From the NCBI GenBank assembly GCA_943704525.1, contig CALSCQ010002033.1, positions 1-47,937 of the forward strand: a stretch of DNA of 47,937 nucleotides, read 5' to 3'. Every line of letters starts with the position of its first letter. The first letter of the stretch is position 1. A model generated the notes under the pieces. It ran no database searches. It was not told the DNA's origin and saw nothing but the letters and a program-made list of their open reading frames with translations. The translations under genes were made by a program, and so were the position numbers. This stretch comes from Pigoraptor vietnamica. Its lineage: Eukaryota > Opisthokonta > Filasterea. Of the stretch, positions 43,335-46,300 are shown piece by piece.

Positions 43335-46300
43335 ATGGCGGCGCAACGACTTGCTGCGTGGACTGTCGTCGCCCTCGCAGCACTTTCCGCCTACTGTATA
43401 TCAAATGTGAGTTGATGTATGATTACGGGTGCGCGCACACGTGCACACATAGACACACGTGCTATCATACCCAAAACTTTGCAAAAACCCAAAGTCATTT
43501 GCGCTCACTTTGCGTTGTGTCCAGGCACGCGCGGATGGCACCATCACTGTGTACTTTAAGAGCGTGACGAACGAGAATGGGCACACCAAGACGGGCGGCT
43601 GCTGTGACAACCTCTGCTACCTCGGTGTGTGGCCGTGCATCTGCACTGGCATCGACCAGTGTGACACATACGTGAAAATGTGCCTCAACTACGACCGCAA
43701 GGTGAGGGACTGTACCAATTGAGGCGTTGTCGTGCGTGCATTGCGGCGCATCCTTACACGAGCGACTGTGTACGCGCAGAACACGAGGTGTTACGACCCA
43801 GACCAGGGTCTGTTTTCGTCAAATCAATACCTGTTCACGAGCAAAGTTCTTGGGGGCAACACGTTCGACCTGTCGGATGACGACAACATATTTTCCGCCC
43901 AGCGAACGTTCTTTGGTTCTATTAAGGTGAGCCTGGAGTTCAAGTATATTGACATTGTCAGCTCAACACGCACGCACGCACGCACAAGCAGACATAGACA
44001 CAGATACAAACACACACGCGCACACAGGTAGAGAACGTGAGCGAGATGGGCGAGAAACACACATATGCATACACCCACACCCACATACACAACACACACA
44101 TACACCCACACAACACACACACACACACACAAATGCAAAGGGTCTCCTTTCTTACAAATCCGTTTCCGGGTGCAGGATATCACCTACGACGTGAGCATCG
44201 AACTGTTCGACAGCGATATCGGCCTGGGTGCGGGTGACTCGATCACGGACACTGTGCGCAGCATAAGTTCGATGTCCAATACGAACGGCAAAATCGTCTA
44301 CAGCACGCAAGAGAACACGTGGACGTCCTTTGTGTGGGGTACGTGGGTTTGCACGCACGCGCACGCATGCGCTCAGCACAACCTCCAAGGGCTGACCATG
44401 TTCGACCCCTTCGCGATGTCCCGCAGGCTACAGCGTCAAGTGCAGCACCAACTATTACGGCGACGATTGCTCCGTTTATTGCTCCAGCTTCACTTGCGGC
44501 AACGGCGGAAAGTGCAACGCCAACACGGGCCTGTGCGACTGCGTCGGCAACTTCTCGTCTGCGGTGAAGTGCAACGACTGCAACGCCGGCTTCTACGGCA
44601 GCATGTGCAGTGGTAAGTGAGCAAAGGCGCTGCTCCGTTTGCCCAGTAAGCAAGTTGGCGTACACACGAACACACACGACGCTCGCGCAAGCACGAGCTG
44701 TACACACATGCATTGATGAGAATCAAAAAATCACACACGTACATACACACATGCACGCCACAGGCCAACACACAGACACTAGTGCCCACGCAACACGTCG
44801 CACAAGTGGTCATGAAGCCTGTTCTGTACCGTCCCTGCCACATAGCGGGCACATACTCATCCACTTCATTCTCCAGCGTGCAAGTGCCAGAACGGCAAGT
44901 GCTCCAGCGGCATAAGCGGCAACGGCAATTGCACCAGTTGCAACACTGGCAATTACTTTGGCTCGCAGTGCATGGGTGAGTGCGGGCGATGTGTGGGTAG
45001 TTTGCACACTGCCTACCTTGCCGCTCATCTATTACAACCCACTCATATACCCGTCCTTTTTTATGTACGCCATTGTCCCCTTGCCCTTCTTCTCCGTCTA
45101 CGAATGATGGCGATGCCTCTACAGCTGTTACAGCGGCGCATAGCACGTTGCACGGCACACTCTGATTCATATTTTGCCAGTTCATCCTATCCATTAGGCT
45201 GCACATTGTGTGGCACACTCTGACTTGAAGGTGTCGCGCTTTTATGTTATCCAGCCTGCACCTGTGTGAATGGAACGTGCAAGACGGGCCTCTCCGGCGA
45301 CGGCAAGTGCTCGGCCTGTGCCGCCGGATATTATGGACCGAACTGCGACAAAGGTGAGTCGGATTGTTTTGGGTTCGCCCGCTATTCTTAGAATATGTAT
45401 GTGTGCGGCTTTCATATGTGTGCGGCTTTGATTCGATGACTACTTGCTGACTTGGAAAAAGTTTCGGATTCAACTACTGCTCCCGCTGACTGCAAAAAAA
45501 AAAAAAAAAAAAAAAAAAAAAATATCGCAGCGTGCCTCTGTAAGAACGGTGTCTGTAACGGCGGCGTTTCGCCAGCGGCTGACGGGATGTGCGTCGGCAA
45601 CTGTACCAAGGGTTTCTACGGGACATACTGCGAAAAGGGTGAGTGTGTGCGCGCGTGCGTGTGTGTGTGCATGCATGCTTGTGTGCGATTATACTGTCAA
45701 GTACACTGATACTCACCTCAATTATCCAGTGTGCACGTGCGTCAAGGGAGCGTGCGACAGGACAACGGGCCAGTGCGTAACCAACTCGTGCGAGCCACGC
45801 TATTACGGGCCTAACTGTGACCAGAGTGGGTCGAAGTGATCTGCCTCGGTGCTGTGTGTGTTGTGTGTTGGGAAGGGGGGGGGGGGGGGGGGGGGGGGGG
45901 GTCGTGCGTGTGTGCGTGTGTGTGTTGTGTGTGTGTGTGTGTGTGCATTGATTACTAACTGATGCGTCAATCGCTCCCAGAGTGTGCATCGCCGTCGTGC
46001 GTTTGCAACGACAACACAGGCGGCACTGGCGAATGGTGTGTAGCAAATCTTGTTGCCCTCCCTTGCGTTCACTCCATTAACACACACACACACACACACA
46101 CACACACACACACACACACACACACACACACACACACACACACACACACACACACACACACACACACACACACACACACACACAGTGCGTCACTGCTGAC
46201 GGGTTCTTGTTGACGGGTTCTTGTTTCTATTTCTTCCGCAGCCTCACCTGCCAGTCCCCGTACCAGAACTACGACCCCAAGACGGGGTGTCGTACTGCCT

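Follow-up and report, generated by a model that had tools for sequence, protein, structure and literature searches.

A Notch-ligand-type head on a gene that probably encodes a receptor tyrosine kinase

A gene that begins near the end of the DNA stretch studied here (the window, 47,937 nucleotides in full) was previously read, from its letters alone, as encoding an MNNL-like domain, a DSL-like segment and EGF-like units, which is the layout of Notch ligands, in an apparently non-metazoan genome. This raises the question of whether the gene encodes a Notch ligand, another type of protein that carries the same head, or an EGF-rich protein in which the cysteines happen to fall in a similar spacing. 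The reading preferred here, with a probability of roughly three in four, is that the window contains the 5' part of a predicted receptor tyrosine kinase, the ectodomain of which combines a Notch-ligand-type head (C2-like MNNL and DSL-like) with at least 11 EGF-like units.

Splice borders and alignment with a paralogue guided the joining of the exons, which was done by eye, and the resulting model starts at position 43335 on the forward strand and comprises 17 exons inside the window. Donors are GT and acceptors, from exon 2 onward, AG. The interval 43335-44612, proposed for the head in the sequence-only reading, corresponds exactly to exons 1-5, opens with an ATG at 43335 and has GT/AG borders. 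The features of the gene are as follows:

43335 to 43406, + strand: exon 1, start codon and predicted signal peptide (splice-border model; signal peptide assigned by eye)
43525 to 43701, + strand: exon 2, first part of the MNNL/C2-like domain (TITVYFKSVTNENGHTKTGGCCDN...QCDTYVKMCLNYDRK; Pfam MNNL, 28.0 bits)
43780 to 43926, + strand: exon 3, middle of the MNNL/C2-like domain (VLGGNTFDL; MNNL match at residues 29-124, and alignment)
44176 to 44338, + strand: exon 4, end of the C2-like domain (DITYDVSIELFDSD...NTWTSFVW; the animal C2-DSL model aligns through it)
44427 to 44612, + strand: exon 5, DSL-like segment (CSTNYYGDDCSVYC) leading into a laminin-type EGF unit (cysteine pattern and Pfam scores below cut-off)
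44877 to 47870, + strand: exons 6-17, 11 EGF-like units (gene model; EGF_STAB1-2 match)
47871 to 47937, + strand: start of an intron (donor gtaagc at 47871), then the contig end (gene model)

Exons 6-17 encode one EGF unit each, except for one unit that is split over two exons, and the introns are mostly phase 1. The contig end cuts the gene after 11 EGF units, and a transmembrane (TM) helix or kinase, if any, lies beyond the window. A long CA tract and a G run occur in introns of this gene (e.g. 46079-46184 and 45878-45901). Elsewhere in the window, an open frame with a cyclic-nucleotide-binding domain (40972-42750, + strand, 47.2 bits) lies directly upstream of the gene, and two further forward-strand frames contain ankyrin repeats (4690-5802) and an AAA_11/AAA_12 helicase (28612-30897). 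The reverse strand carries protein kinase pieces at 33949-35931 and 36280-37140, one of them with a kinase C-terminal domain (ROCK/MRCK-like by eye), and a Folliculin-interacting protein middle domain at 11155-12510 (193.8 bits).

Heads of this type are present at no fewer than six loci of the genome, namely the window gene (contig C830 in the genome comparisons) and genes on contigs C117, C1222, C354, C874 and C583. The MNNL homology that had been claimed for the window gene is borne out by the curated Pfam profile, which matches the N-terminal 187 residues with 33.1 bits (E 4.8e-8, cut-off 22.5) and covers residues 29-124 of the spliced N-terminus, while the exon-2 frame scored singly reaches 28.0 bits, and 26.6 bits in the genome profile scan. 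MNNL is not listed at E up to 10 when the whole 432-residue partial window protein is scanned, supposedly owing to the HMMER composition filter acting on the cysteine-rich remainder. Among the other heads, C117 matches MNNL with 39.7 bits (E 4.3e-10) and C874, scored singly, remains just under the cut-off (20.6 bits), and the C2-like parts of C1222 and C583 have no Pfam match at E up to 10.

An animal C2-DSL model built from the PDB sequences of JAG1, JAG2, Serrate, DLL1, DLL4 and Delta agrees with the Pfam result, as it finds all four heads that it was given (C830, C117, C1222 and C874) and aligns the window protein through the C2-DSL junction. The scores amount to 46.3 bits for C117, 40.5 for C874, 34.6 for C1222 and 31.7 for the window protein, and the reverse search from the heads of this genome recovers all six animal heads. 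Both the model comparison and the shuffle control covered these four of the six heads, C354 and C583 being left out. When each sequence was shuffled 100 times with Cys and Trp kept in place, not a single shuffle reached the real score in any of the four heads, whether in the C2 part or in the DSL/EGF part. The real C2 score and the highest shuffle are 29.4 and 6.9 for C117, 25.8 and 5.2 for the window protein, 10.1 and 3.6 for C1222, and 8.8 and 7.9 for C874, the margin of which is therefore small; the corresponding DSL/EGF values are 15.2 and 8.5 (C117), 9.6 and 6.6 (window), 16.2 and 3.7 (C1222), and 19.8 and 11.1 (C874). In addition, a single hhalign comparison of the C2 parts gave a probability of 97.1 (E 7.8e-11) over 109 columns, and the cysteine-free stretches VLGGNTFDL and IELFDSD align in register with Jagged1 and DLL4. 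On these sequence grounds, homology of the C2 domain to that of animal ligands is taken as shown for the window protein and C117, and is likely for C874 and C1222.

The DSL segment presents a more ambiguous picture. With the Pfam DSL profile, the window segment fails at 9.7 bits (E 1.4, cut-off 24.2), and C117 (15.2 bits), C1222 (21.5 bits) and C874 (23.2 bits) also fall below the cut-off, while C583 passes with 71.8 bits over a 200-residue piece. Exon 5 reaches 21.6 bits with EGF_2 and 20.4 bits with EGF_laminin, both under their cut-offs, and the 432-residue window part matches EGF_STAB1-2 with 38.8 bits (cut-off 27) and EGF_2 with 14.5 bits. The DSL start, C-x7/8-C-x3-C with YYG, is found in 6/6 heads of this genome, and the first cysteines of the window segment are placed as in animal DSL domains, with two extra ones. 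In a comparison that took C354 as exon 5 only and C583 as the 200-residue piece, the eight-cysteine pattern that follows this start was present in all six heads of this genome versus none of the six animal ligands, while conversely the RDDxFGH loop was present in every one of the six animal ligands and in 0/6 of the heads. This loop of the DSL domain has a role in Notch contact. A phmmer search against the PDB aligned two Delta-like chains to YSVKCSTNYYGDDCSVYC without significance (E 0.52 and 2.7), the top match of the same search lying between the EGF part and a mastigoneme protein (E 0.05), and an AlphaFold model of exon 5 alone was set aside (pLDDT 45.6). The segment is thus best described as DSL-like, and by the curated Pfam test it is not assigned to the DSL family. 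Accordingly, when the Pfam check proposed for the head was run, its MNNL half (PF07657) came out positive at 33.1 bits and its DSL half (PF01414) negative at 9.7 bits; the MNNL domain and a DSL-like start therefore stand, a DSL domain proper does not, and the Notch-ligand order of MNNL, DSL-like start and EGF units is upheld by the Pfam scores and by the animal C2-DSL model.

What kind of protein carries this head is indicated by the closest paralogue, C117. Its protein shares 537 of 633 aligned residues with the window protein, and its exon layout is matched by the window gene through 11 EGF units. Over the same 633 codons dN is 0.096 and dS 0.68, so that in the two ectodomains changes that alter amino acids are fewer than silent ones. 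The possibility that the two genes are alleles was dropped, given this dS, the differing intron lengths and the separate contigs. The gene on C117 is complete (a 1144-residue model in which 13 EGF units were counted) and has the layout of a receptor tyrosine kinase, with a signal peptide, an ectodomain, a TM helix predicted near residue 736 and a tyrosine kinase domain of 275 bits, the signal peptide and the helix being assigned by eye. Its kinase retains GEGEFGEV, AVK, HRDLAARN, DFG and MAPES, and its best PDB matches are EGFR, Mer and FGFR3. Just upstream of this kinase gene, at about 1-5800 (L011), lies a gene whose last part encodes EGF-like units and a TM helix followed by a tail that contains tyrosine motifs.

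C1222 and C354, which were read exon by exon rather than as full gene models, combine a similar head and EGF exons with the same kinase, at 68 and 70% identity to that of C117; exon 3 of C354 has no clean in-frame acceptor. The same kinase is also encoded on C77, C838, C716, C180 and C877 (61-69% identity). A search with the C117 kinase for the 3' end of the window gene did not find it among the 36 matches listed (85 of 334 candidates scored), where the best kinase besides C117 itself is 70% identical. We infer a receptor kinase for the window gene because its sister gene C117 carries a TM helix and an intact kinase.

The head is not confined to such genes. On C874 (L030, L038), a head resembling MNNL and DSL is followed by EGF units, a TM helix and a tail that is rich in tyrosine, with nine in its first 147 residues, and that bears SH2-type motifs; the 10 kb downstream showed no kinase. 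By its sequence C874 has the layout of Delta and is kinase-free, and the head can therefore occur apart from a kinase. On the minus strand of C583, at about 22900-32400 (L013, L014), C2-like exons recognised by eye are accompanied by a long DSL/EGF array with a TM helix downstream; 31 DSL matches are listed there, some of them overlapping, in two frames parted by a masked gap, and the array is likely to be one gene.

The receptor side of the pathway is also represented. The sequence-only reading had suggested looking for a Notch-like receptor with LNR repeats in the same genome, and one is present on the minus strand of C1027 at about 7250-11100 (L042). It consists of a signal peptide (by eye), LNRs, a NOD-like stretch, a TM helix and ankyrin repeats. 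Two pieces scanned apart contain nine and three LNR stretches (276 and 75 bits); the NOD-like stretch reaches 15.4 and 15.3 bits (cut-off 20), and NODP is not listed in the Pfam scans of the two pieces. The seven best PDB matches are the regulatory regions of NOTCH2 (E 1.9e-17), NOTCH1 and NOTCH3, and the alignment with NOTCH1 spans the LNR and heterodimerisation region. EGF repeats are absent, as the frame passes from the signal peptide directly to the LNRs and the scans of the two pieces contain no EGF family. The genome also has a partial match to the CSL DNA-binding domain (52 bits), which covers positions 91-152 of 152 and contains one stop. Further LNR proteins are encoded on C854 and C1171 (L041, L040), one of which contains the metalloprotease-like motif HExxH and looks pappalysin-like by eye, and the other two LNRs. 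Since C1027 has no EGF repeats and the heads lack the FGH loop, canonical ligand binding would be unlikely.

These observations allow the alternatives to be weighed. That the MNNL match reflects chance cysteine spacing in an unrelated EGF-rich protein is very unlikely: the low DSL score, the missing MNNL in the scan of the whole 432-residue protein and the C2-like parts of C1222 and C583 that resemble no Pfam family would fit such an origin, but shuffles that preserve Cys and Trp never reproduce the real score in the four heads, the hhalign probability is 97.1%, and the stretches in register with Jagged1 and DLL4 contain no cysteine. A less improbable, though still minor, alternative is that the window gene encodes a kinase-free Delta-type membrane protein like C874, the kinase having been gained or kept by the paralogue only. 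The existence of C874, with its TM helix and tyrosine-rich tail and no kinase seen in the 10 kb downstream, gives a precedent for this, and the 3' end of the window gene lies past the contig end; however, identity to the window protein over the C2 domain and DSL start is 86% for C117 and 27% for C874, and it is with C117 that the exon layout agrees through 11 EGF units.

The gene could alternatively encode a true Notch ligand of a unicellular holozoan, acting on the C1027 receptor of the same genome, which is considered somewhat less probable than a kinase-free protein. The order of MNNL, DSL-like segment and EGF units speaks for it, as do the LNRs, NOD-like stretch, TM helix and ankyrin repeats of C1027, whose seven best PDB matches are all NOTCH regulatory regions, and the partial CSL match. 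Nevertheless, C1027 offers no EGF repeats on which a ligand could dock, the RDDxFGH loop of all six animal ligands occurs in none of the six heads, and the closest paralogue bears a kinase. Given these differences and the unmatched DSL profile, the identification as a Notch ligand is not supported, and the receptor tyrosine kinase remains the preferred reading.

For the receptor kinase we infer a kinase end of the window gene, a bound partner, clustering and a direction of signalling. The head, extended on its EGF stalk, would bind a partner on another surface, which may be prey, a substrate or another cell; the receptors would then cluster and their kinases phosphorylate one another, and the tail tyrosines would recruit SH2 or PTB proteins.

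The origin of the genome bears on how far back this head can be traced. The genome searched comprises 32.5 Mb in 1395 contigs, and family searches, which lacked a positive control because matches were found in 0 of the 14 control genomes, returned 11 T-box matches on six contigs (C844, C791, C1344, C123, C1365 and C854; ten over the cut-off) and six integrin beta matches on four contigs (five over the cut-off on three contigs, the best with 178.5 bits), together with no Wnt match, from which the absence of Wnt is not thereby established. Filastereans and ichthyosporeans possess both T-box genes and integrin beta, while to our knowledge choanoflagellates have no T-box genes and mostly no integrin beta. 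The presence of both families therefore suggests that the genome probably comes from neither an animal nor a choanoflagellate, and most likely from another, unicellular holozoan. The earlier view of a non-metazoan genome is thus probably right, and the genome size of 32.5 Mb and the lack of a Wnt match, with the above reservation, are in keeping with it.

A possible history, though less likely than not, is that the C2-DSL head predates animals. In this scenario a family of receptor tyrosine kinases would first have carried it as their extracellular part, kinase-free membrane proteins like C874 would have existed by then, and Delta and Jagged would have arisen by loss of the kinase and gain of the Notch-binding DSL loop. 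Notch, as a regulatory region with a TM helix and ankyrins and no EGF repeats, would have existed separately and acquired its EGF array later, and the pair would have met only on the animal stem. If true, the ligand head would obtain an earlier home, and the route would have been receptor first, ligand later. In addition, since the same genome encodes a Notch-like receptor without EGF repeats, the way in which the Notch-ligand pair arose could be examined within a single organism.

Parts of this system have been described in other unicellular relatives of animals. According to the available portions of the respective papers, Notch- and Delta-related domains and integrin beta occur in Ministeria ESTs (PMC2346548), Notch, Delta and receptor kinases are counted among unicellular holozoan genes (PMC8061703), and Monosiga has a weak Notch-like gene (PMC2770060). 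The portion available of a paper on holozoan tyrosine kinases does not name Delta (PMC8662651), and another paper, in the part consulted, derives Notch from bacteria (PMC7649014). As for the MNNL domain, the accessible text of PMC4810162 treats it as a later invention placed on the animal stem, and that of PMC6040629 places it in the animal-choanoflagellate ancestor; if the genome belongs, as is probable, to neither an animal nor a choanoflagellate, the MNNL domain and DSL-like segment found here on a predicted receptor kinase would point to an earlier origin than either account. No report of MNNL on a kinase was found among the matches listed in the open-licence literature searched.

Compared with animal Delta and Jagged proteins (JAG1, JAG2, Serrate, DLL1, DLL4 and Delta), the window gene has the same order of C2-like MNNL domain, DSL start and EGF units, but it differs in the lack of the RDDxFGH loop, two extra cysteines, a DSL score under the cut-off and STAB-type EGF units, and in the kinase that its closest paralogue carries. 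The description of this layout as animal-specific is outdated, judging from the accessible text on two proteins. One is m.249548 of the choanoflagellate S. dolichothecata, an MNNL and DSL protein reported by Richter et al. 2018 (PMC6040629) together with DSL domains in two ichthyosporeans; like the window gene it joins both diagnostic ligand domains in a unicellular animal relative, but it comes from a partial contig, and that text describes no TM helix and mentions no kinase. The other is the 'Delta-like' receptor tyrosine kinase of Capsaspora owczarzaki (Suga et al. 2013, via PMC4810162), in which two DSL domains and EGF repeats are joined to a receptor kinase; no MNNL is mentioned for it in the text available, whereas the kinase-linked head described here has one. 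Similarly, the tyrosine kinase BAM76481.1 of Ministeria vibrans, proposed as the ancestor of DLL, JAG and NOTCH (PMC11594159, as far as its text was accessible), resembles the window gene family as an EGF-rich filasterean receptor kinase likened to Notch ligands, but that claim rests on cysteine and EGF similarity, and in a comparison made by description its main text names neither MNNL nor DSL. A Delta-like receptor kinase was thus already known from Capsaspora, and what is new here is the MNNL domain on such a receptor, alongside kinase-free relatives and relatives on the receptor side within a single genome.
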